From positions 744,001 to 808,000 of the forward strand of contig NZ_CP133597.1 in NCBI RefSeq assembly GCF_031200575.1: a DNA stretch of 64,000 bases, in the 5' to 3' direction. The notes under the pieces were generated by a model. It was not told the origin of the DNA. It saw only the letters and a list, made by a program, of their open reading frames with translations, and ran no database searches. The number at the start of each line of letters is the position of its first letter. Position 1 is the stretch's first letter. The position numbers were made by a program, and so were the translations under genes. The stretch is from Ferroplasma sp. GTDB taxonomy: Archaea; Thermoplasmatota; Thermoplasmata; Thermoplasmatales; Thermoplasmataceae. Below, one piece after another: positions 33,175 through 45,976 of this stretch.

Positions 33175-33699
33175 CTAAACAATTAACTTAAGCTCAAAAC
33201 CTGCGATTGTGACAATAATACCCACTGTTACCATTACCACAATCCAGAATCTCGCCCTCCCGGCTGTAGATTTGCTTATAAAGAGTCCCAGAACTGCCAG
33301 GGATGTGTATGATAAGGAAAGCGGAATTATCTCATTTCCCCTTATTATGAGCGAGGAGGATAAGGGGATTAGTGCCCCCAGAAAACCGAAAAATGCTGCA
33401 ATAAGGGCGCCGATGAGCGATTCAATAAATATTTCTATGCCCAGATGACCCTTTAGGAGATAATCGGTGGACTTCAAATTCAGTTGGAGGGCTGTTCTAT
33501 GAAGCTCTTCATTCAAACCGGCATACTGGGCTATAAAATAACTGAAAGCGCCGGCAAATGCAGAGCCGAATGAAATCTTAAAAGCCTCAAACATATCTAT
33601 ACTGCTTTTGCCGATGATGCCACCGGATGCAAGAATCAGCGCAGTAATAATACCATCAGACAGGCCAATGCTTACCGGAAATATGTATTTTTTATTCAT
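33175..33699 (-). CDS. VIT/CCC1-like membrane transporter
   Basis: The 174-residue protein starts KKYIFPVSIGLSDGIITALI, the first-helix signature of the VIT1/CCC1 (DUF125) family of iron/manganese transporters. It has five predicted membrane segments, and FGFLGALIPLSSSL is the second conserved helix. The middle amphipathic stretch (LKSTDYLLKGHLGIEIFIES) is much shorter than in metal-sequestering eukaryotic VITs. Substrate is unknown; divalent metal is plausible given iron-rich acid habitats. Its start overlaps the DUF211 gene by 4 bp, so they are coupled. Confidence 0.72.
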   Translation of the reverse strand: MNKKYIFPVSIGLSDGIITALILASGGIIGKSSIDMFEAFKISFGSAFAGAFSYFIAQYAGLNEELHRTALQLNLKSTDYLLKGHLGIEIFIESLIGALIAAFFGFLGALIPLSSSLIIRGNEIIPLSLSYTSLAVLGLFISKSTAGRARFWIVVMVTVGIIVTIAGFELKLIV

Positions 33700-33962
33700 T
33701 TTATGATATGCTTTCCGGTAATAACCTCATCTATGGAATGTATGGCACATCCCATATCCTCTATAACCTTGACAAGATAATTATAATTGATATTAATTCC
33801 CTCTACTGTTATACTTGTTCCCATAGTTTCCATATCCATCTCAGTAACAGTTATCCTCACGGCATCCACACCAGGCACATCTTCTATGGAACCTGCAAGT
33901 TCAGTCAGTGTGGGCCTGTTTAATCCTTTATCAACGTCCAGTAAAATTCTTCTCAGATTCAT
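33696..33962 (-). CDS. DUF211 family protein
   Basis: From ATG 33962 the protein is 88 residues: NLRRILLDVDKGLNRPTLTE, then VDAVRITVTEMDMETMGTSI, INYNYLVKVIEDMGCAIHS. This matches the small archaeal DUF211 fold, a ferredoxin-like oligomer reported to bind metal ions in structural studies. The frame extends to 34001, but the family starts near MNLRRILLD, and the TATA-like ATGATATAAAT at ~34013-34024 lies too close to 34001. A 4-bp overlap with the VIT-like gene suggests a joint role, possibly as a metal-sensing or gating partner; that is inference. Confidence 0.8.
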   Translation of the reverse strand: MNLRRILLDVDKGLNRPTLTELAGSIEDVPGVDAVRITVTEMDMETMGTSITVEGININYNYLVKVIEDMGCAIHSIDEVITGKHIIK

Positions 33963-34098
33963 AAATTTATCAAACCTCGAAGCAATTTGGCCATTAGCCA
34001 TATTCTTCCATTTATATCATTATATAATTATTATTTATTAATCTTTTCTGCTCATAATACCTAATTATTGTTTTTCATGGAAGATGTTTTTATAGAGC

Positions 34099-35844
34099 CT
34101 AAATAAGCGACACTATTATAATTATAAGTATAAAGGCAGCTATCATGTATATAATATATGCCGATATGGAACTGTTCATGATTTTGTAAGCTATAAATTT
34201 AGCAAAACTTCTGTAAGCCCTGGCAATGCTTATCATAATCATCCAGAAAATATCAACAGTTTCTACCCTGCTTTCATCTGTGCTTTTAGTCCTGAGTACC
34301 CTCTTAAGTATAAGGCGTATATTATTAGAATATGTGAAAGAGTTATAATATTCTCCATGTTCTATGCCACCATTCCAGCGACTGACAGTTCTGGTTCTTG
34401 GCCTTCCGAAGACAGCAAATACAATTAATGAAAATACCATAAGAAGTATGACAATGTAAAGAGGCGTTATAAGCCCGAAATCAGATATGCTGAGGCGGGA
34501 CTCTATCATAAACCCATTTAATACAAGAACAGAGGGTATACCGGATATATAGCTCCTGCCCACAATTAAAAATGATATGGCGAACAGAAATACAAGTGTT
34601 AATCCGGTACCAAGGATAGTGTAATTCTCCAGGTTTTTCCCATGTGATTTCCGGTGGCTATCTGTGAAATAAAAAATTTTCAGCATTGCAGCGGTGGCAA
34701 AACCCTCACCCATGGCAATAAGGGAACCGGCTATGATTGAAGCGATCCCCAGTGGTCCATAGAGGTAGGCACCCATGAAAAACGACTCCAGTACCATCCA
34801 TGTCCCGAGCCCGCCAAGTGAAGGGAACAGCCCTGAAAGGGAAGACATTGCAAAAAATTTGCCTATCTGATTAACAGTATCCCTGTCCCCTTTAACTGCA
34901 CTGAAATACTCAGCACCGGTATGGCCTATGGACATAAATAGCCCAGTTTTTGCTATGGAATGGGCCATTGCAAAAATGGCTATGGAAATGAGGATGAATT
35001 CTTTTAATACACTATCATTGACAGATATAAATAGGCCTATTGCAGCCATTAACACACCATTATTTTCTATTGTGCTGAATCCCCCAAGGGATTTCATATT
35101 TTCAGATATATATGCATAAAGTGCCCCGAAGAGCACAGATATGACGCCTATAATAATGAATAGTATGCCTATGTCAGTGGAAACTGGGGAAAGCAATGCG
35201 ATTTTTAATATCCCATACACTCCCATGAGCGTCATTGTTGCACTAAAAATTGCGGACGAATTGGCAGGGGCACTTCCATGGGCTATGGGAAGCCACTCAC
35301 TTATCATGAAGGGCGTCAAACCCATTTTTGACATGGCACCTATGGCAAATATGAGCAGTACTATATCATTGGAAAGCCCTGTAAAATTGAATGTGCCGGT
35401 ATAATAATAAGAAATTACTGCAGCGGTTATAATCAGTACAGTGCTTATTTCAGAGAACAGCATGAATATATAGGCCTCTATATCATTTTTCTTATTTATT
35501 GCCACGGTCAAATATGCAGGTATTGACATTATCTCCCAGCCTGTTATGAACACAAGAAAGTTATTTGCATACAGTATTGTCATCATTCCCGCAATGGTCA
35601 TTATAAACAGAGGTGCTAGCCATTTCCCATATTTTTTTGAATATGAAATGGAAAACACAGATGTTATTATCCATACTATAGCCGCTATCAGGTAAAAGTA
35701 TGTAATGTAGTCAAAAATTCGGAAGGTCAGGAGGAAAAACAGGGCTGAGGCTATGGCTGTAATTATGTAACCTGCAGTTCTGTATTTTATTGAAACCAGT
35801 GCGGCCAGGAAAACTGCAATTAATGGCACATAATAATATATCAT
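34099..35844 (-). CDS. NuoL/HyfB-like proton-pumping subunit of a hydrogenase-like complex
   Basis: The 581-residue membrane protein has ~14-16 helices and the antiporter-type signatures of complex I: FITGWEIMSIPAYLTVAINK (essential Glu) and SKMGLTPFMISEWLPIAHGS then APANSSAIFSATMTLMG (Lys/His channel). The C-terminal ~120 residues, with a charged RPRTRTVSRWNGGIEHGEYY loop, resemble the HyfB tail. It is the last gene of the six-gene operon and its ATG overlaps the previous stop by 4 bp. Expected role: ion translocation driven by the soluble arm. Confidence 0.88.
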   Translation of the reverse strand: MIYYYVPLIAVFLAALVSIKYRTAGYIITAIASALFFLLTFRIFDYITYFYLIAAIVWIITSVFSISYSKKYGKWLAPLFIMTIAGMMTILYANNFLVFITGWEIMSIPAYLTVAINKKNDIEAYIFMLFSEISTVLIITAAVISYYYTGTFNFTGLSNDIVLLIFAIGAMSKMGLTPFMISEWLPIAHGSAPANSSAIFSATMTLMGVYGILKIALLSPVSTDIGILFIIIGVISVLFGALYAYISENMKSLGGFSTIENNGVLMAAIGLFISVNDSVLKEFILISIAIFAMAHSIAKTGLFMSIGHTGAEYFSAVKGDRDTVNQIGKFFAMSSLSGLFPSLGGLGTWMVLESFFMGAYLYGPLGIASIIAGSLIAMGEGFATAAMLKIFYFTDSHRKSHGKNLENYTILGTGLTLVFLFAISFLIVGRSYISGIPSVLVLNGFMIESRLSISDFGLITPLYIVILLMVFSLIVFAVFGRPRTRTVSRWNGGIEHGEYYNSFTYSNNIRLILKRVLRTKSTDESRVETVDIFWMIMISIARAYRSFAKFIAYKIMNSSISAYIIYMIAAFILIIIIVSLI

Positions 35845-36440
35845 TTTTTATCCCTCGCCTCTATTATTGCATTAAGAATTGCTGACGGTGTCGGTGGGCA
35901 TCCTGCGATACGTATATCATATTTTTCCATCGCGCCCTTTCCCATAATTCCGCCGGAGAGTGCGCAGGCACCAAGCCCTATTACAATTTTTGGTTCAGGC
36001 ATGGCATCATAAGCCTCCCTGAGAACCCTTTCCATTCCTTCTGTATAAATTCCCATGACAACCAGGGCATCGGCATGCCTCGGGGTACTGGCCATAAAAA
36101 TTTTGAATCTGCTGGAATCGTACTGTGGTGAAAACAGTGTGGTGAATTCAACATTGCAGGCACCGCAAGTACCTGAGTCCACAGGATAGAGATAGAGAGA
36201 TTTTTTAAATATGTCCGGAATTTTCTGATCAATGGAATATGTATTCTGCTTGCCTGTTGGATTCAGATCACACTGCCTGCAGAATATACACCTATCCATA
36301 TTCCACATTCCATTGCTGATAGCCTCTGTTGGGCAGTTATAATCACTTACCCCCTCCAGTACAGAAGGATACAGAAGGCTGTATTTATCCAGTTTCTCTG
36401 TCTTTATCCGCTTCTTCATACCACTGATGAACCAGTTCAA
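35841..36440 (-). CDS. fused [4Fe-4S] ferredoxin-like + NuoB/HyfI-like small subunit
   Basis: The 199-residue protein starts with a single-cluster region: CPTEAISNG followed by CIFCRQCDLNP (four cysteines, residues ~36-57). The NuoB-type domain follows, with all four cluster N2 ligands: SGTCGACNVE, GLGACALSGG and IAGCPPTP. In hydrogenases and complex I these two parts are normally separate proteins (HyfH/NuoI with two clusters, and HyfI/NuoB), so this is a compact fusion. It sits between the large subunit and the NuoL-like subunit with 4-bp overlaps on both sides. Confidence 0.85.
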   Translation of the reverse strand: MNWFISGMKKRIKTEKLDKYSLLYPSVLEGVSDYNCPTEAISNGMWNMDRCIFCRQCDLNPTGKQNTYSIDQKIPDIFKKSLYLYPVDSGTCGACNVEFTTLFSPQYDSSRFKIFMASTPRHADALVVMGIYTEGMERVLREAYDAMPEPKIVIGLGACALSGGIMGKGAMEKYDIRIAGCPPTPSAILNAIIEARDKK

Positions 36441-37591
36441 TGAAACCTCACCTCCAGTTCAGATATCCAGATGCCAAAGCTTTCCCATACAAAAAAGAAA
36501 TCGGTGAAAATATTTCCATTTTTCAGGGCATATCTAAAATTTCTCATATTAAGATAAGATGGCGATGACATCTGTATATCCATTATCCTGCCCCCATCTA
36601 TTTTCACGTAATAAAAGAGGTCCCCGGCAGGCGATTCTATTCTGGCAGTGCCCTCTCCATACCCATTTAATTCCATTTTATTTCTTCTGTAAGTTTTTTT
36701 AATATCATATGACTCTATTATATTTATGGACTCAAATATTTCACCTGCCCGGACAAGGAATCTGGAAAACGTATCGCCAGCACTTTCCATTACAGTATTA
36801 TACTTTCCATAATCAAGGGATCTGGAATCCAGCCTTGCATCATACCTGTAATTTGCTGCACGTGCAGCCGGCCCAGTAGACACAGGATCAGACACAACTC
36901 CGTTTTCCTGTAGCCTGTCCAGGAATATTTTAGATGAAAGCAGTCCATCATAAATGGACCTAAACTGTTTCTCAACAGAATTGAGTACTATTCTGGAAAA
37001 GTCACCATCAATAGAATTTATGCCATTTACGGAAAAATAATATCTGTGCCCGAAAGCACGGGAAATTATTCTGGCAACCTCCTCCCTAAGAAGCAATAGC
37101 TGTTTTTCCGGAACAACAAACCCAGCAGATTCACACAACCCTTTTATTACATCAATATTGGACCGTATCCTTTCCAGTTCAATTTCTACAATTCTTGCAT
37201 TATTTAAATCACTGTTATCCATGTTCAAGGCATCCTCCACTGCCAGTGTATAGGCTATGCTGTGTGACGCTGAGTGAAATCCGTTGATTCTTTCTACCTT
37301 CAGTAGTGAGTCAGAAATATTATCCCCTATTATGCTAATATTTCTTCTTTTAAATTCGGAATTTATGATAACATCCCTTATAGATTCACCAGGCGTAAGT
37401 ATGCTGAAATTTACAGATTCCCTGAGCCCACCTGCTGAAGGTCCATAATTGAAATATATCTCACCCTGGGTTCTTTCCTCGTGATCATCTTCATCCATAC
37501 TTATTCCTGTTAGAGTTGAACTGTAAACGTCATATTTTTCAGTTCTCCCCACGTACCTTCCGCTTTTCTCTCCGAATTTATAATATCTCAT
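36437..37591 (-). CDS. NuoD/HyfG-like large subunit lacking NiFe-binding cysteines
   Basis: The 384-residue protein aligns with group 4 hydrogenase large subunits. The first metal motif, normally RICGICS..H, reads RINGFHSASHSIAYTLAVED (Cys to Asn103 and His106). The C-terminal CxxC of the DPC..C motif is missing (end VWESFGIWISELEVRF). It therefore cannot hold a NiFe site in the usual way. Internal features such as ELERIRSNIDVI and SRAFGHRYYFSVNGI are kept, so the fold and the quinone/redox interface are probably retained. ATG 37591 overlaps the previous gene by 14 bp. The acceptor is unknown. Confidence 0.85.
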   Translation of the reverse strand: MRYYKFGEKSGRYVGRTEKYDVYSSTLTGISMDEDDHEERTQGEIYFNYGPSAGGLRESVNFSILTPGESIRDVIINSEFKRRNISIIGDNISDSLLKVERINGFHSASHSIAYTLAVEDALNMDNSDLNNARIVEIELERIRSNIDVIKGLCESAGFVVPEKQLLLLREEVARIISRAFGHRYYFSVNGINSIDGDFSRIVLNSVEKQFRSIYDGLLSSKIFLDRLQENGVVSDPVSTGPAARAANYRYDARLDSRSLDYGKYNTVMESAGDTFSRFLVRAGEIFESINIIESYDIKKTYRRNKMELNGYGEGTARIESPAGDLFYYVKIDGGRIMDIQMSSPSYLNMRNFRYALKNGNIFTDFFFVWESFGIWISELEVRFH

Positions 37592-38903
37592 GATACACCA
37601 CCAGAAATACAATTCCTATGAATATAGATATTATTGCTGCTATAAGGGGTATGGCGGTATTAATTCCAGCCTGGCTGTATTCAGACTTACCCCTGAAGAT
37701 CATTTTAGATATGTTGAAATTTATTGAAACAAATGCCAGGAAAAGTGAAAGTACTATTATGCTAAACTGTGCATAGAAATGTATGGAAAGAACAGAGTAA
37801 AGTATGAGAAACTCGCCGAAAAAGGTTCCGAAGGGCGGTGTTCCTGTTACGGCGAAGGAGGATAAGAGCATTGAAGCGGCACTTGCCCTGTTCCTGATTA
37901 ATCCGCCAACACCCTCAATGGATTTTGTTCCGGACATCTCAAAAACATTTCCAGAAGAGTAAAAAGCTCCAGCCTTCCCGAAACTGTGTGATAGTAGAAG
38001 CAGAAGGGAACCGATCAGTCCTGCAACTGTGAATGTACTCAAACCTATGAGTGCTATATTCATATTTTCCATTGTTGAATAGGCAAACATTCTCTTGTAG
38101 TTTTTCTGGTAACCAAGGAATATAGCAGCAAAGAGCACTGAAATGGTACCTGCCCAGATGAATAGCTCCCTCATGGGAAATATCTCATAAATCCTGTAGA
38201 GTACGTACAATGCAACTGGCAGCAATACCCCTGAAAACATTGCACTCACAGGTGCAGGGGCCTCGCTATGGGCATCAGGAAGCCATGTATGCACAGGGAA
38301 AACACCCACCTTGGTGCCGAACCCAACCAGAGCAATTCCCACGGCCAGCCTTACTGCGAGGCTATCTGTAATCCCCTTTGATAGAATTGCTGTAACTGTA
38401 AGCGTTCCGAAGGCATAATATATCAATATAACAGATATAAAGGCAAATGTAACCCCTGCAGAAACTATAATTATATACCTCCATGTAGCCTCAAGGGAGA
38501 TATCCGATTTTTCAGTAATTAAGAGCAGGGCTGATGAGATGGTTGTCGTTTCTATTCCAACCCACATGAAGCCATAATTATTTACCATCAGGGCAAATTC
38601 CATGGCAACATAGAAGAATCCCATGAGCATGTAATAAACATTTTCTGAAATCCCCCTGTGTCTTACATTATGGACATATTTTCTGGAATAGATCAGGGAC
38701 ATAAAATAAATGGAACTTACCATCAGAATGAATATATAAGTAATGCGGTCAATGAAAAAGAACCCCGAATCAGATAAATTGAAGTACAGTGGAATAAGCA
38801 GGAACATTTCCATAATAGCTGCTATTATGCTGGTAATCTTAATATTCTTATAAAATCCCATGGCAATTAATGGTATAATCAAGATAAGTATCTCGTAAAT
38901 CAT
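37578..38903 (-). CDS. NuoN/HyfF-like proton-pumping subunit
   Basis: The 441-residue, ~13-14-helix antiporter-like subunit has FMWVGIETTTISSALLLITE (essential Glu) and GFGTKVGVFPVHTWLPDAHS then EAPAPVSAMFSG (Lys and His relay). Both are conserved in complex I and group 4 hydrogenases. Its ATG overlaps the stop of the HyfE-like gene by 4 bp, and it precedes the large subunit. Second of two antiporter-type subunits in this operon. Confidence 0.87.
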   Translation of the reverse strand: MIYEILILIIPLIAMGFYKNIKITSIIAAIMEMFLLIPLYFNLSDSGFFFIDRITYIFILMVSSIYFMSLIYSRKYVHNVRHRGISENVYYMLMGFFYVAMEFALMVNNYGFMWVGIETTTISSALLLITEKSDISLEATWRYIIIVSAGVTFAFISVILIYYAFGTLTVTAILSKGITDSLAVRLAVGIALVGFGTKVGVFPVHTWLPDAHSEAPAPVSAMFSGVLLPVALYVLYRIYEIFPMRELFIWAGTISVLFAAIFLGYQKNYKRMFAYSTMENMNIALIGLSTFTVAGLIGSLLLLLSHSFGKAGAFYSSGNVFEMSGTKSIEGVGGLIRNRASAASMLLSSFAVTGTPPFGTFFGEFLILYSVLSIHFYAQFSIIVLSLFLAFVSINFNISKMIFRGKSEYSQAGINTAIPLIAAIISIFIGIVFLVVYHEIL

Positions 38904-39541
38904 CCTCTCAACTCCTCCACAGGTTTATGTTCTGTCTTTTCAATGCTTATAATCGAAAAAATTACTACAAGTATCAGAACATCCAGAAACACACTGCTTT
39001 CTATTATAATAGGAACCGGAAGAATGAAGGTACCCATGAGTATCAGTGAATTTTCCTCCTCGATGTAGCCAAGTATCTGTGCAATGGTTCTCCTCCTAGA
39101 AGCAATAATAAATAGTCCCTGGAAGAACAATAGCAGTGGAAATAGAATGATATTGCTCTCCGGGAATATGCGAGAAACTATATGAATAAATGATATTGAG
39201 TACACTATAAATATGGAAATTACAATGAATGCAAGATCAACCAGAAGGTAGTAAGTTGTAGGAAGCCTGGATTCATATAAATAATTTTTATTTTTCGGTA
39301 TCTTTGCCGCCAGGAAATATGTAACCAGTATGCTCCTCAACAGAATAACAAGCAATGCCAGTATGAAAAATGTATACTGTTTAAGCTCGAAACCCAAAAG
39401 TATTGCTATAATGGCAATGAGAAGCGACTGAAATGCCTGTGTCATGACCATAGATCTCAAATACTTGTTGCTCTGTATATAAAATCCTGTTATTACTATT
39501 AGTGCAGCAATTAAATATATCACTGTAAAAACTATGTTCAT
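38900..39541 (-). CDS. HyfE-like small membrane subunit
   Basis: The 213-residue protein begins MNIVFTVIYLIAALIVITG and has six to seven membrane helices. It has the NuoK-like pattern of the HyfE family in its second half (ILGYIEEENSLILMGTFILP, with a Glu pair in a membrane-adjacent segment). The frame opens upstream to 39676, but ATG 39541 overlaps the stop of the NuoH-like gene by 4 bp and is clearly the start. Role: membrane arm component linking the antiporter subunits to the NuoH-like one. Confidence 0.8.
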   Translation of the reverse strand: MNIVFTVIYLIAALIVITGFYIQSNKYLRSMVMTQAFQSLLIAIIAILLGFELKQYTFFILALLVILLRSILVTYFLAAKIPKNKNYLYESRLPTTYYLLVDLAFIVISIFIVYSISFIHIVSRIFPESNIILFPLLLFFQGLFIIASRRRTIAQILGYIEEENSLILMGTFILPVPIIIESSVFLDVLILVVIFSIISIEKTEHKPVEELRG

Positions 39542-40479
39542 GCAATCACCTCTGAAAGTATGAGAAACAGTATTGAAAATGTGAACGCCACAGCAAGGTA
39601 GTCTATAACCTTGAACAGGCGTAATTTGGCCATGGAAGTATCCACTATTAGCACAATGATTATAAGGAAGAGCCATTTTGCAATCATTGTAAGGGCGTTA
39701 AGGAAGAATAATGGAAATGTGTTGAACATCCCCCATGGGATAAGGAATACATTAATTAATACAGATCCCAGAAGATAGACCTTTATGTATGATGACCATT
39801 TGTTTACTGCAAGAGCCTTCCCACTGTATTCATAATCTATGCCTGAGTCTATCATGCCCATTTCCTGGTTCCCCTCACTCTGTGTTGGCATCTTTCCGAA
39901 TTCGTACATGAAGATCATGAAGAATGCAAATATTGCAAAGATGTGCACAAGGCTCAGGTTGGAGAGTGGGTGGCTGATAAGGTAATGGTTTGTTGTGTAG
40001 GGATTATTTGTACCTGTTATCAGTGCTACTGCAAAAAAAACTGTTATAAGTGTACCCTCACTGAAGAAGTTAAAAGACATAAGCCTTGATGCCCCCATAG
40101 CGGAGAAGTTACTTCCTGAATCCATTGTTCCTATTATTTTTATGAAAGCCGCAAGGGAAAACAGTATTGCACCGGCAAAAAAATCCCCGGAGGCAGTGAA
40201 AATTATTGGTTCTGTCATGAACACAGGAATAATCAGGGCAATGAGTGAGTATATGCCAAATGCCATATATGGCGCGTATAAAAATAATTTTGATGAACCC
40301 TCTGTGATTAATGTTTCCTTCTTAAATAGCTTGAATATATCATAATAGGGCTGAAATATGCTGGGGCCTTTCCGGGATTCAATATTTGCCTTTAGTTTTT
40401 CAAAAATTCCTATAAGAAGTGGTGAAAATAAAACAACGAACAGATACTGCGAAACCGTCTCCAGGATTAATTCTAACAT
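39538..40479 (-). CDS. NuoH/HyfC-like membrane anchor subunit
   Basis: First gene of the operon. The 313-residue protein has about eight helices and the NuoH signature ESRKGPSIFQPYYDIFKLFKKE near the N-terminus. A conserved acidic loop reads MYEFGKMPTQSEGNQE. This subunit joins the peripheral arm to the membrane arm and lines the quinone or ion path. GGTGAT just before ATG 40479 is a good ribosome-binding site and excludes the GTG at 40488. The promoter TTTAAATATTC at about 40549-40562 gives a leader of ~50-60 nt. Confidence 0.87.
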   Translation of the reverse strand: MLELILETVSQYLFVVLFSPLLIGIFEKLKANIESRKGPSIFQPYYDIFKLFKKETLITEGSSKLFLYAPYMAFGIYSLIALIIPVFMTEPIIFTASGDFFAGAILFSLAAFIKIIGTMDSGSNFSAMGASRLMSFNFFSEGTLITVFFAVALITGTNNPYTTNHYLISHPLSNLSLVHIFAIFAFFMIFMYEFGKMPTQSEGNQEMGMIDSGIDYEYSGKALAVNKWSSYIKVYLLGSVLINVFLIPWGMFNTFPLFFLNALTMIAKWLFLIIIVLIVDTSMAKLRLFKVIDYLAVAFTFSILFLILSEVIA

Positions 40480-40730
40480 TTTAATCACCAGTAGGCGTCA
40501 TCAGCGCACTGCATTATGGAGACGTCATTCCTATACTGAATGGTTCAGGAATATTTAAATTTTGGTTTGTAAAATTGACAATTAAAAATGAAATGTGTCA
40601 AATTTTATACATAAAATGCAGTGAAAGTTAGCTGTTGCACACATTCAATGCATTTAATTTTCTTACAGTACTATCACAATGTGCGGAACCCTACTCAGAA
40701 TAATTATATAGTAAAATCTACTTTACTTTT

Positions 40731-43700
40731 ATGAAGTTTGCCGTACTTATTGGCTGGAATGGTTCTGTTATCCAGTCCTTTCTTAAAGCAGGCGAGGAAA
40801 CAGGAAATGAAATAGAAATAAAATATCCCCGGCTTGATCCAGTAGATTCTGAATTTATTGATTTTATTAAGAAAGCCGATGCTGTATTTATACATCATTT
40901 TTCAGGCGAGAACATATACAGTAATATTCTTGAGGATATTGAATCCGTAATTAAAAATAAGAAGAATGTTATTGCCATAGACCCCATACTCAGCAGTTAC
41001 TCTACTGTAAGCAAGTTTGTTGAGGAAAAGGTATCCAATTACTATTTCTATGGTGGCTATGAAAATATCAAAAACATGGTACTATTCATTGAAAGCCTGA
41101 ATGATGGCTGTGCATACAAAGAGCCTGTTGAAATGCCTTTCTCCGGGGTTTATAATTATGGTGAAACTGGTTATCCCAGGAAGGCAGGCATACTATTCTA
41201 CAGAACCGCATGGGTGGATAATGATACCGGCATTGTAAGGTCTATTATTGATGAATTAAATAGCAGGAAGATATCGGCAATTCCTGTGTTCACAAACGGA
41301 TTCGGAGATAAATCTAGAAATATCGTGAGTGCAGAGGAATGCATACGGGAGTATTTTTATCGGGATGGAAAACCCGCAGTAGATGCGGTTATTAACCTGC
41401 TCTCATTTTCACTGATAAAAATGGAGGACAAGGCCACACTTATGGAACTCGGTGTACCCGTTTTCCAGGGGCTTATTTACTATTATAAGGAGAAAAACGA
41501 ATGGCTTGATTCTTCTGGCCTGGATGTTGTTTCAACAATAATGAGTGCCATGCTGCCAGAAATGGACGGCACAATAGAGCCCGTCCTCGTAGGGCTTATT
41601 AAAAAGATTTATGACCATGGCACCGTATACAGGGAACTTGTGCCTGTTCAGGAGCAGGTAGGTTATATGGCCGGGAGAATCAGCAGATGGATTGACCTTA
41701 AATATAAAAATAACAGAGATAAAAAAATTGCAATAATACTTCATTCCGGATCCTCCTTCAAGGATCTTGAGGCCAATATCGGTACTGCAACAGGGCTGGA
41801 TACACTAAATTCTGTTTCAAATATAATGCATCAGCTGAAATCCGCTGGATATTCCATTGAATATCTCCCGAAGGATGGAGAGTCACTGATAAAAACAATA
41901 ATGGAGAGGAAGGCAATTCCAGAGGGAAAATGGACACCTGTTGAGGATATAATAAACAGGGGAGGTTCAGTTTACAGCATGCCTGTTGACCAGTACAGTA
42001 GATTTTTCGAAGGCCTTCCGGAGGACTCTAAGGAACAGATAATATCCAGATGGGGTAAACTCAATAATGAAAGGGATTACATGCTCAAGGATGGTAAAAT
42101 AGAAATCCCGGGAATAATATCTGGCAATATATTTATTGGGATACAGCCGAAAAGAATTACCTTTGCAGATAATAACAACAGCATAAGGACCATACACGAT
42201 TCCCTAACACCAATAACCCACTACTGGCTGGCATTTTATAAATGGATCCAGGAGATATTCATGGCAGATGCCATCATACATGTTGGCACCCACGGGACAC
42301 TTGAGTTCACACCCGGGAAGGGCCTGGGGCTATCACCTTCCGATTTTCCCGAAATTTCCATAGGAGAAATCCCCAATCTATATCTTTATTCTACAAATGT
42401 GCCAGGGGAGGGCATAATTGCCAAGAGAAGAAGCTACGCTGTATTACTTGATTACATAACACCGCCCACGGCCTACGACGAAGTTCCTGAGGAAATAAAG
42501 GAGCTTGAGGACCTTATAGATGATTATGAAGAAACTGAGAAAGCTGAAAATAAACCAAGGGAGGGAATGATACTTGAAAAAATACAGAAAATTTCTGATA
42601 AAATTGGGCTATCAATAGATTTCAGGGATTCACATAAGGCAACTCATGAAATAGAGCATAGATTGAATCTTTTCAAGGATTCCGTGGTTACAAAGGGACT
42701 TTATGTGTATGGGAAGGACCTGGAAACTGCTGATATAAAAGATTATGTTATCACCGCAACCCGTTTTGACGAATCCCTGTATAAAGAGAACGGAAAGGAA
42801 AAAGCAGAGGCAATTATAGATAGATACCTGGAAAATGGTGGCCACCTGCCGGATCTTGAGTCCGGGATAATAGAGAAATTAAAATACTCCCCTGAAAATG
42901 AGCGGAATAATCTCCTATCAGCACTTGAAGGAAAATACATAGAGCCCGGAGTATCAGGTTCACTCACCAGGGGAAGATATGATGTGCTACCATCAGGAAG
43001 AAATTTTTATGCCGTTGATCCGTTTAAAATACCAAGCCATTCTGCCTGGCAGGTAGGCGTCGTGCTTGCAAATAAACTCATAGAAAACGAGTATAAAAAA
43101 GAAAATAAATTCCCAGAAACAATAGGTTTTGTCCTATGGTCAACGGACGCATACCGCTCAGATGGGGAACTTATCTCACAGATACTTTACACACTTGGGG
43201 TTGAGCCTGTGTGGCAGGAAGGGACTAAAAAGGTCAAGGATGTTAAGCCCATTCCTCTGGATATACTGAAGCGGCCAAGAATCGATGTGGTTGTAGAATC
43301 CAGCGGCATAGTCCGTGATAACCTTTTCAATATAATAGAATTAATAGATATAGCAGTTAAGAAAGTATCTGAACTGGATGAGGATGGGGACAGCAATTTC
43401 ATTATAAAGCATCACAGAAAATACGGGCACCTTGACAGGATATTTTCTTCAAAACCCGGGTCATATGGTTCCGGTGTAAATAACGCTGTTGAATCATCAA
43501 AATGGGAAAACGAAGGAGATTTAGCTGAAGTGTTCACCGAATGGATGGGATATTCTTACGGCAAAAACAACTTCGGAAAGGAATCCAGGGAACAGCTTCT
43601 TTCTATATCAAGGGATATCGAAACCATTATACATAAGCGGGAAATAGATGAAATTGATATAAACGATGATTCCTGTAATTATTCCTATGCAGGAGGATTT

Positions 43701-44141
43701 TATCTGATGGCAAAAAAGAGTGGATCAAATCCGTCACTGATGTTTGAAGATACATTTAATCCAAATAAACCAAAAATAAGAACCATGAAGGAGGAAATAG
43801 AAAGAACCGCCATCGGAAAGCTGTTAAATGAAAAGTGGATCGATGCCCAGAAAAACTTTGGATATCGTGGAGCAACTGAAATGTTAAAAAAAATAGAGCA
43901 TCTCTATGGTTGGGGAGCCACAACCGGAATGGTCAATGATAATATTTTCAACAATATAGCTGAAAAATTCATAATGGATAAAAATATGAGGGAATGGTTC
44001 AAAAAGGAGAATCCATGGGCTCTTTCAGAGATAACATCACGGATGATAGAGGCATATAAAAGGGAGATCTGGCATGCCAGCGATGAAATGAAGGAGAAAC
44101 TGGAAGAAGAATACATGGAAATTGAAGGTGAAAATGAATGA
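40731..44141 (+). CDS. cobN: cobaltochelatase large subunit (CobN / magnesium-chelatase H family)
   Basis: Porphyrin/corrin-binding catalytic subunit that inserts Co2+ into the corrin ring for cobalamin synthesis, powered by the ChlI/ChlD-type ATPase encoded next. The 1136-residue length is normal. Signatures are DAIIHVGTHGTLEFTPGKG, YLYSTNVPGEGIIAKRRSYA, HSAWQVGVVLANKLIE, HLDRIFSSKPGSYGSGVNNA and a C-terminal YLMAKKSGSNPS and WALSEITSRMIEAY. ATTATATAG at ~40703-40711 is about 25 bp before the ATG (leaderless). It overlaps the next gene by 4 bp. No chlorophyll genes are nearby, so cobalt rather than magnesium is the likely metal. Confidence 0.9.
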   Translation: MKFAVLIGWNGSVIQSFLKAGEETGNEIEIKYPRLDPVDSEFIDFIKKADAVFIHHFSGENIYSNILEDIESVIKNKKNVIAIDPILSSYSTVSKFVEEKVSNYYFYGGYENIKNMVLFIESLNDGCAYKEPVEMPFSGVYNYGETGYPRKAGILFYRTAWVDNDTGIVRSIIDELNSRKISAIPVFTNGFGDKSRNIVSAEECIREYFYRDGKPAVDAVINLLSFSLIKMEDKATLMELGVPVFQGLIYYYKEKNEWLDSSGLDVVSTIMSAMLPEMDGTIEPVLVGLIKKIYDHGTVYRELVPVQEQVGYMAGRISRWIDLKYKNNRDKKIAIILHSGSSFKDLEANIGTATGLDTLNSVSNIMHQLKSAGYSIEYLPKDGESLIKTIMERKAIPEGKWTPVEDIINRGGSVYSMPVDQYSRFFEGLPEDSKEQIISRWGKLNNERDYMLKDGKIEIPGIISGNIFIGIQPKRITFADNNNSIRTIHDSLTPITHYWLAFYKWIQEIFMADAIIHVGTHGTLEFTPGKGLGLSPSDFPEISIGEIPNLYLYSTNVPGEGIIAKRRSYAVLLDYITPPTAYDEVPEEIKELEDLIDDYEETEKAENKPREGMILEKIQKISDKIGLSIDFRDSHKATHEIEHRLNLFKDSVVTKGLYVYGKDLETADIKDYVITATRFDESLYKENGKEKAEAIIDRYLENGGHLPDLESGIIEKLKYSPENERNNLLSALEGKYIEPGVSGSLTRGRYDVLPSGRNFYAVDPFKIPSHSAWQVGVVLANKLIENEYKKENKFPETIGFVLWSTDAYRSDGELISQILYTLGVEPVWQEGTKKVKDVKPIPLDILKRPRIDVVVESSGIVRDNLFNIIELIDIAVKKVSELDEDGDSNFIIKHHRKYGHLDRIFSSKPGSYGSGVNNAVESSKWENEGDLAEVFTEWMGYSYGKNNFGKESREQLLSISRDIETIIHKREIDEIDINDDSCNYSYAGGFYLMAKKSGSNPSLMFEDTFNPNKPKIRTMKEEIERTAIGKLLNEKWIDAQKNFGYRGATEMLKKIEHLYGWGATTGMVNDNIFNNIAEKFIMDKNMREWFKKENPWALSEITSRMIEAYKREIWHASDEMKEKLEEEYMEIEGENE

Positions 44142-45976
44142 AAACTTATTATTTCCCATTTTCCGCCATAGTGGGCAATAATGATATAAAACTTGGCCTT
44201 ATAGTTAATGCAATAGACAGCAATATAGGTGGTTTGCTGATTACCGGACCAAAGGGCATAGCAAAATCAACCATGGTAAGATCATTATCGTCTGTTTTGC
44301 CGGAAATAAAGGCTGTCAGGGGCTGCAGATTCCACTGCGACCCGGATGGCGATCTATGCGATGAATGTATAGAAAAGCAGAAAAATGGAAAACTGGAAAC
44401 AGAAGAAATGAAAATAAGGATAGTAAACCTGCCAAATAGCACAACCCTGGACAGGGTAGTAGGATCTCTGGATATTTCACATGCAATAAAGGGAGAATCT
44501 GTACTTCGTGAGGGGTTAATTGGCGAGGCAAACCGCGGTATACTATATATAGACGAGGTGAACCTGCTGGAAGATTCAATTGTTGATTCCATACTTGATG
44601 CAGCAGCGTCAGGGGTCAATATAGTGGAGAGGGAGGGTGTATCTTATACACATCCCGCCAGGTTCATACTTGTCGGAACAATGAATCCGGAGGAGGGGGA
44701 ACTCAGGCCACAGCTTCTTGACAGATTCGGGATTTCTGTGGAGGGGAAAATGCCGGAATCACCTGAAACCCTTCTTGAAATATCAGGCAGGGTTGAGGAA
44801 TTTGACAGGAATAAATTAGAATTCATTAATAAATACAGGGATGAGGATAAGACTATAAAATTGCGAATAATGAAGGCCAGGGAGATCCTTCCATCCGTCA
44901 TAATCAGAAGAGAATTTTTGATGTTTATAGCTGATACCGTCCTGAAAAACTCCCTGAGCAACAGGGCAATGATAAGCACTGTAAAAACAGCAAAGGCAAT
45001 AGCAGCGTATAATGGCAGAAAGCAGGTAAATGAACAGGATTTAAGAAAGGCTCTTGAGTTTGCCCTCAATCACAGAATTAGAGAGAAGGGCAACAGCAGA
45101 CCTGATTATAACTATAAAGAACCCGAAAATCATGATAACAATGAAGATCAGAAAAACAGCCACTCTAATTATGAGGATCATGAAGAGGACATTGGCAATA
45201 ATGATAAATCCGGAAACAGTAAAGGCCCAGATAATAATAAACATGGCAATAACCCAAAAAAGGATCAAATAGGAAAAATTCAGGTCAGGCCAGAAAACAG
45301 CATGGAAACCAGGACTTCTGGAAGATCCGGTATTTCCAGGCAGTTTAAACACCGTGGAAAAAAATCTGGAACCCATATTGATATAAGATCGTCCCTGCTT
45401 ACCACATGGACTTCAGGTTTCAGTGAAATAAACAGCAAAACTGTAGTTCTGAATGATTCATTTTCATCAGGGTCTGTTCCCTTTATAATAGCCATAGATT
45501 CAAGCAGATCCATGAATTTCAGTTCAAGGATACAGATAGCAAAGGATTTTTCGGATATGCTGCTTAAAAAACTCTACCTGATGAGAAGTCGTGTAGCCCT
45601 GTTAACATTTTCCGGCCAGCATTCAAACATAGTAATGAATTTTTCCAGGAACTTTACCTCACTGAGGAACCATATAAATAACATAAAGAGTGAGGGCAAA
45701 ACCCCACTCTACGATGCACTGATGGAAATATATAAGCTGTCCACTTATGAGAAATTCAGAACGGTTTCTTTACTGATATCTGATGGAAGGGGTAATGTAT
45801 TTCCAGGAAATCCCAGAAGCGATCTTGAATATATATCCAGAAAAATTAAAAAAGTTTCAAAAATGTACATAATCGATAAAAACGATAATAAATTCCTTCC
45901 CACATATAATAATATAATTTCCAGTTATTCAGGTGCTACAATTATAAATGACCTGAATAATATATCGATTATGTGA
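44138..45976 (+). CDS. cobaltochelatase ATPase, fused ChlI/ChlD-type subunit
   Basis: AAA+ motor for CobN. Residues ~1-330 are ChlI-like: Walker A ITGPKGIAKSTMVRSL, Cys-rich RGCRFHCDPDGDLCDEC insert, Walker B GILYIDEVNLLED and VGTMNPEEGELRPQLLDRFG. A ~100-residue linker extremely rich in Asn, Asp, His and Lys follows (about 325-425). A von Willebrand A domain with MIDAS motif IIAIDSSRSMNFSSR and LLISDGRGNVFPG completes it. Bacterial systems usually split I and D; a fused ID protein is known from archaea and cyanobacteria-related chelatases. It is translationally coupled to cobN by ATGA overlap. Confidence 0.9.
   Translation: MKTYYFPFSAIVGNNDIKLGLIVNAIDSNIGGLLITGPKGIAKSTMVRSLSSVLPEIKAVRGCRFHCDPDGDLCDECIEKQKNGKLETEEMKIRIVNLPNSTTLDRVVGSLDISHAIKGESVLREGLIGEANRGILYIDEVNLLEDSIVDSILDAAASGVNIVEREGVSYTHPARFILVGTMNPEEGELRPQLLDRFGISVEGKMPESPETLLEISGRVEEFDRNKLEFINKYRDEDKTIKLRIMKAREILPSVIIRREFLMFIADTVLKNSLSNRAMISTVKTAKAIAAYNGRKQVNEQDLRKALEFALNHRIREKGNSRPDYNYKEPENHDNNEDQKNSHSNYEDHEEDIGNNDKSGNSKGPDNNKHGNNPKKDQIGKIQVRPENSMETRTSGRSGISRQFKHRGKKSGTHIDIRSSLLTTWTSGFSEINSKTVVLNDSFSSGSVPFIIAIDSSRSMNFSSRIQIAKDFSDMLLKKLYLMRSRVALLTFSGQHSNIVMNFSRNFTSLRNHINNIKSEGKTPLYDALMEIYKLSTYEKFRTVSLLISDGRGNVFPGNPRSDLEYISRKIKKVSKMYIIDKNDNKFLPTYNNIISSYSGATIINDLNNISIM

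Follow-up and report, generated by a model that had tools for sequence, protein, structure and literature searches.

The 64,000-nucleotide stretch of Ferroplasma sp. DNA analysed here (contig NZ_CP133597.1, positions 744,001 to 808,000; hereafter the window) comes from a 1.86 Mb genome in a single contig and carries a six-gene cluster that almost certainly encodes an energy-converting-hydrogenase-related (Ehr) complex. The genes lie on the minus strand from 40479 to 34099, in the order HyfC, HyfE, HyfF, EhrL (large subunit), EhrS (small subunit) and HyfB, and neighbouring genes overlap by 4–14 bases. An original prediction, made from the letters of the window, had described six overlapping genes for a membrane arm and both peripheral subunits; open reading frames (ORFs) of matching families are found at these positions:

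39538..40479, minus strand: HyfC/NuoH-like membrane anchor (ATG start at 40479, alternative GTG start at 40488; PF00146, E 1.4e-33)
38900..39541, minus strand: HyfE-like membrane subunit, 213 residues (NF008556, hydrogenase 4 membrane subunit, E 1.2e-9, below the curated cut-off; position in the cluster conserved)
37578..38903, minus strand: HyfF antiporter-like proton-channel subunit (PF00361, E 5e-47; NF005042, hydrogenase 4 subunit F, above cut-off)
36437..37591, minus strand: EhrL, NuoD/HycE-like large subunit, 384 residues (PF00346, E 5e-19; best PDB match MbhL, 6cfw, E 2e-17)
35841..36440, minus strand: EhrS, NuoB/HycG-like small subunit, TTG start (PF01058, E 6.8e-22; best PDB matches MbhJ and HycG)
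34099..35844, minus strand: HyfB antiporter-like proton-channel subunit (PF00361, E 2.3e-22; NF005046, hydrogenase 4 subunit B, above cut-off)

Five of the six genes match their families above cut-off (Pfam NADHdh, Proton_antipo_M twice, Complex1_49kDa and Oxidored_q6), and HyfE is recognized only by the NCBIfam model. Together, the homologues of HyfB, HyfC, HyfE and HyfF form a hydrogenase-4-type membrane arm with antiporter-like subunits; the best relatives of HyfC among solved structures are subunit 4 of formate hydrogenlyase (FHL) and Mbh13. The same six-gene order recurs across Thermoplasmata and in Mycobacterium branderi, which argues that the arrangement did not arise by chance.

The defining feature of the complex lies in EhrL, where three sites were located by alignment:

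37274..37285, minus strand: codons of Asn103-x-x-His106, in place of the first nickel-ligand CxxC (aligned to MbhL and HycE)
36458..36469, minus strand: codons of Trp375-x-x-Glu378, in place of the C-terminal nickel-ligand CxxC (aligned to the DPCxxC of the Butyrivibrio and Azospirillum hydrogenases)
37418..37420, minus strand: codon of Glu58, the equivalent of Glu21 of MbhL, a proton residue of the membrane-bound hydrogenase (MBH)

All four nickel-ligand positions are substituted in EhrL. Pairwise and multiple alignments place Asn103 and His106 opposite the first CxxC of MbhL and HycE, and Trp375 and Glu378 occupy the positions of the C-terminal pair; the original prediction had noted both the N-x-x-H replacement and the missing second motif. 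EhrL holds a single cysteine, outside any CxxC and not near the old nickel site, and a second cysteine is present only in an extension from an alternative start codon. Most of the 44 core archaeal sequences keep each substitute (Asn in 39, His in 35, Trp in 37 and Glu in 40). Because sequences this diverse would hardly retain such residues in a decaying site, the old NiFe site looks re-tooled rather than decayed. Glu58 is found in all 44 core archaeal and all six bacterial Ehr sequences, is present in every Ehr examined except one, and is absent in NuoD. In contrast to its deeper relatives, EhrL has no NuoC domain (no PF00329). Elsewhere in the genome we found no HypD and no NiFe hydrogenase, with PF00374 nowhere above cut-off. 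The two CxxC pairs of group 4 [NiFe] hydrogenases and HypD, as a sign of their Hyp maturation, are not found here. Nor do the results named as refuting in the original prediction occur, since displaced nickel cysteines, HypD and PF00374 matches above cut-off are all absent.

We searched a profile built from nine sequences against 300 Thermoplasmata genomes and found near relatives across most of the family, with remoter ones throughout the class. Judged by the large subunit, the closest named relatives are Ferroplasma acidarmanus Fer1 (about 70% identical) and Acidiplasma aeolicum (57%). A maximum-likelihood tree separates 51 Ehr large subunits from Mbh, FHL and Ech-type hydrogenases and from NuoD with 100/99 support, against a small outgroup of four hydrogenases and two NuoD sequences. 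The match to Ehr complexes proposed earlier is upheld by this fully supported clade; the branch order inside it is provisional because the tree contains no Geobacter, thaumarchaeal or MBS (Mbx) sequences. Plasmid-borne homologues from Mycobacterium, Burkholderia, Rhodococcus, Meiothermus, Rhizobium and Alicyclobacillus also lack the CxxC pairs, and the homologues of Butyrivibrio and Azospirillum carry them and adjoin hyp genes. Two distinct Ehr large subunits, placed apart in the tree, are encoded by several Thermoplasmata genomes (G276, G282, G294 and others), which suggests that these have paralogous complexes.

EhrS is predicted to carry two iron–sulfur clusters:

36270..36335, minus strand: ligands of an N-terminal [4Fe-4S] cluster, Cys36 (CPTEAI) and Cys51, Cys54 and Cys57 (CxxCxxC) (aligned cysteines)
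35898..36167, minus strand: ligands of a proximal (N2-type) [4Fe-4S] cluster, Cys92, Cys95, Cys159 and Cys181 (spacing as in MbhJ and HycG)

The proximal ligands, described as intact in the original prediction, are indeed invariant in 58 of 58 aligned relatives. Their CxxC has the ungapped spacing of MBH rather than the tandem CC of complex I. They are preceded by the ferredoxin-like segment CPTEAI..CIFCRQC, whose four cysteines are kept in 55–58 of the 58 aligned small subunits. Some deep relatives encode a two-cluster ferredoxin as an ORF of its own (L065), and in others (L062–L064) the small subunit is fused to a complete two-cluster domain; in alignment with these, EhrS retains the last cysteine of the first motif and the three leading cysteines of the second. 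In two-cluster ferredoxins, these four cysteines are the ligands of a single cluster. The alignment shows that the N-terminal segment of EhrS holds exactly one cluster's ligands and has lost those of the other, giving two predicted [4Fe-4S] sites overall. The retained cluster presumably corresponds to N6b of complex I, the one nearer N2. A Pfam Fer4 match on EhrS is non-significant (E 0.41), so this cluster is assigned from aligned cysteines and not from a domain match. Two plasmid-encoded Ehr small subunits, from M. branderi (L070:10090-10884; SNGSDEWE/GTDA/PGAP) and Allomeiothermus silvanus (L074:8086-8958; NTGLDDTE/GNEA/PGSP), retain one N-terminal CP..CxxCxxC motif and have lost the proximal-cluster cysteines, so that the usual electron route through N2 is closed in these two complexes.

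The conserved six-gene unit contains no additional donor gene, which fits a soluble carrier as the electron donor. The genome has two genes for 2-oxoacid:ferredoxin oxidoreductases (OFORs) and no NuoF-type NADH module. In genomes G158 and G294, OFOR and fumarase genes, recognized by eye, adjoin related Ehr clusters.

The best-supported reading is that electrons pass from ferredoxin through two clusters to a membrane acceptor and that this is linked to proton transport; the cluster ligands and the membrane arm are seen in the sequence, and we infer the donor, acceptor, direction and coupling. Reduced ferredoxin, produced by the cell's OFORs, would hand electrons to the one cluster at the N-terminus of EhrS, from which they would move to the proximal cluster and on to an acceptor, most likely a membrane quinone, in a chamber between EhrL, EhrS and HyfC. 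Glu58 could aid proton delivery, and the released energy would move protons via HyfF and HyfB. The non-hydrogenase part of this scheme is supported by the lack of nickel ligands, of HypD and of any PF00374 match above cut-off. The scheme as a whole, a redox-driven proton pump without hydrogenase activity running from ferredoxin to quinone, is tentative, and we hold it with somewhat less than even confidence. It is possible, if doubtful, that the old NiFe site, once emptied, was turned into a new and conserved catalytic pocket (Asn-His/Trp-Glu), which would deal with the acceptor by a mechanism unlike those of MBH, MBS and complex I, in a pared-down pump with only two Fe–S clusters.

Several observations weigh against the ferredoxin-to-quinone scheme. 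The predicted set of pump residues is incomplete in HyfF and HyfB. The earlier claim of intact pump residues holds for the glutamate of transmembrane helix (TM) 5 and the lysine of TM7 in both subunits and for the TM12 glutamate of HyfF; it fails for the TM8 lysine, which is replaced by proline in HyfF and leucine in HyfB, and for the TM12 glutamate of HyfB, which is threonine across the Ferroplasma group though glutamate in other Ehr. The quinone residues of complex I, His38 and Tyr87, are not found in EhrL, which has N77 and G104 at those positions. The OFOR neighbourhood of Ehr was seen in a single genus, and a separate true Nuo operon, complex I-like and NuoEFG-less, at about 820–829 kb of the same genome (G000:C1) could serve ferredoxin instead. 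AlphaFold models of the two peripheral subunits, built from nine-sequence alignments, were of low confidence (mean pLDDT 40.6 and 55.0) and were not used.

The same parts could also run in the opposite direction. An extreme acidophile has a large proton gradient, and the complex may operate in reverse, spending that gradient to reduce ferredoxin from quinol. The anatomy of the complex leaves the direction unfixed, and the lineage is acidophilic with Fe(II)-oxidizing members (Yelton et al.; PMC3750248), so low-potential electrons would be scarce and the gradient large. However, related complexes are encoded on plasmids of Mycobacterium, Burkholderia and Rhizobium, hosts that live without such gradients, and ferredoxin is already reduced by OFORs. 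We regard reverse transport as unlikely.

A link to formate dehydrogenase (FDH), in which the complex would resemble FHL without H2 production and FDH would feed electrons into EhrS, appears improbable. Such a link has been proposed for other Ehr (PMC6349859), the Geobacter complex is more abundant on formate (PMC7894505), and a cluster in Fer1 was annotated as a formate hydrogen lyase (Yelton et al.; PMC3750248). The present genome has two FDH-type genes, both outside the Ehr cluster. Just left of the window (G000:C1:740021-742012; L066:7022-9013) lies the gene of a 663-residue FDH-type molybdopterin protein with no evident partner subunits. Against the link, the conserved Ehr unit contains no FDH gene, the dedicated partner expected of an FHL-type complex. 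Co-occurrence was scored over 60 genomes of the order, using E 1e-40 from the profile search for Ehr and the curated cut-off for FDH. No positive association was found: 33 genomes have both, 12 Ehr only (including the closed genome G067), 14 FDH only and one neither (Fisher p 0.15; the trend runs against a partnership, and the test is indicative only, as the 60 genomes are related). With 12 of 45 Ehr genomes lacking FDH, an obligatory FDH partner is rejected.

Sulfur compounds are commonplace in acid mine settings, and the original prediction had named sulfur compounds and quinone as candidate reactants. Sulfur or polysulfide reduction would follow the example of Pyrococcus MBS (Mbx), in which, as here, His38/Tyr87 are missing and the NiFe site is not intact (PMC7684303). 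MBS, however, relies on a three-cysteine proximal cluster, its loop being shorter by three residues, and has no E21 equivalent (PMC7684303), whereas EhrS has the ungapped MBH-type CxxC spacing and EhrL keeps Glu58. Since this shortened, three-ligand hallmark is missing, an MBS-like sulfur site is rejected and a sulfur or polysulfide acceptor is disfavoured, making this reading quite improbable; of the two earlier guesses quinone is the likelier, although the quinone residues of complex I are absent. Finally, it is scarcely credible that the complex is an active hydrogenase whose ligands have moved, or that the old site holds a different metal: His106 and Glu378 could in principle bind a metal, yet with neither a CxxC nor any nearby cysteine, and with no HypD or hydrogenase above cut-off in the genome, a true hydrogenase is rejected.

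The surroundings of the cluster were also inspected. Divergent from it, at 40731-45976 on the plus strand of the window, lie genes for a CobN/magnesium-chelatase-type large subunit and a fused ChlI/ChlD-type ATPase, a pairing retained in Fer1 (L007) and L011. Downstream, at 33175-34001 on the minus strand, come two mutually overlapping genes, one of the DUF211 family and one for a VIT1-like membrane protein. Both come after the cluster in its closest relatives (L004, L005 and L011) but are not beside it in Fer1, and we rejected them as Ehr partners. Universal-stress-protein-like genes, annotated in L070 and identified by eye in the other six loci, adjoin many archaeal and mycobacterial Ehr clusters (L050, L052, L055, L062, L063, L065 and L070), hinting at shared stress or hypoxia regulation. 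A PADLOC search gave no matches.

The complex truly belongs to a kind that is already known and functionally uncharacterized, as missing nickel motifs were published for Ferroplasma and its neighbours in 2013. In that study, the putative group 4 hydrogenases of Ferroplasma Fer1 and Fer2 and of A-, E- and Gplasma miss both nickel-binding motifs (Yelton et al. 2013; PMC3750248). The complex is to that extent less novel than the original prediction implied. These acid-mine-drainage plasmas are of the same lineage, and the Fer1 locus (L007) has the same six genes in order; they are different species, and neither the fused one-cluster segment nor the conserved substitutes are described in the portion of the paper available (PMC3750248). 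Nor did the open-access literature searched yield the FDH profile, the pared-down entry chain or the conservation of the substitutes.

Ehr complexes generally share the nickel-ligand-free large subunit and the hydrogenase-4-type membrane arm, and have been reported in Sulfobacillus, Nitrospira, ammonia-oxidizing archaea and Geobacter; they were reportedly treated by Coppi in 2005 and by Marreiros et al. in 2013. The M. branderi plasmid complex (L070) is identical in gene order (H-E-F-large-small-B) and shares the one-cluster N-terminal segment, but differs in its missing proximal-cluster cysteines and in a partial NuoC domain on its large subunit. Pyrococcus MBH and MBS/Mbx, Escherichia coli FHL and complex I have homologous peripheral and membrane subunits. 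Compared with them, the Ferroplasma complex lacks the NiFe ligands of MBH and FHL, the three-cysteine proximal cluster of MBS, and both the tandem CC and the His38/Tyr87 pair of complex I. Ehr complexes occur widely among aerobes and acidophiles. For this lineage, the FDH profile removes a popular hypothesis in its obligatory form, and the conserved substitute residues provide specific targets for mutation. While some deeper Ehr have a NuoC domain or a separate two-cluster ferredoxin subunit, the cluster described here is a reduced, Thermoplasmatales-type form with neither and with one entry cluster; it is the most reduced form in this sampling and thus a possible minimal system.

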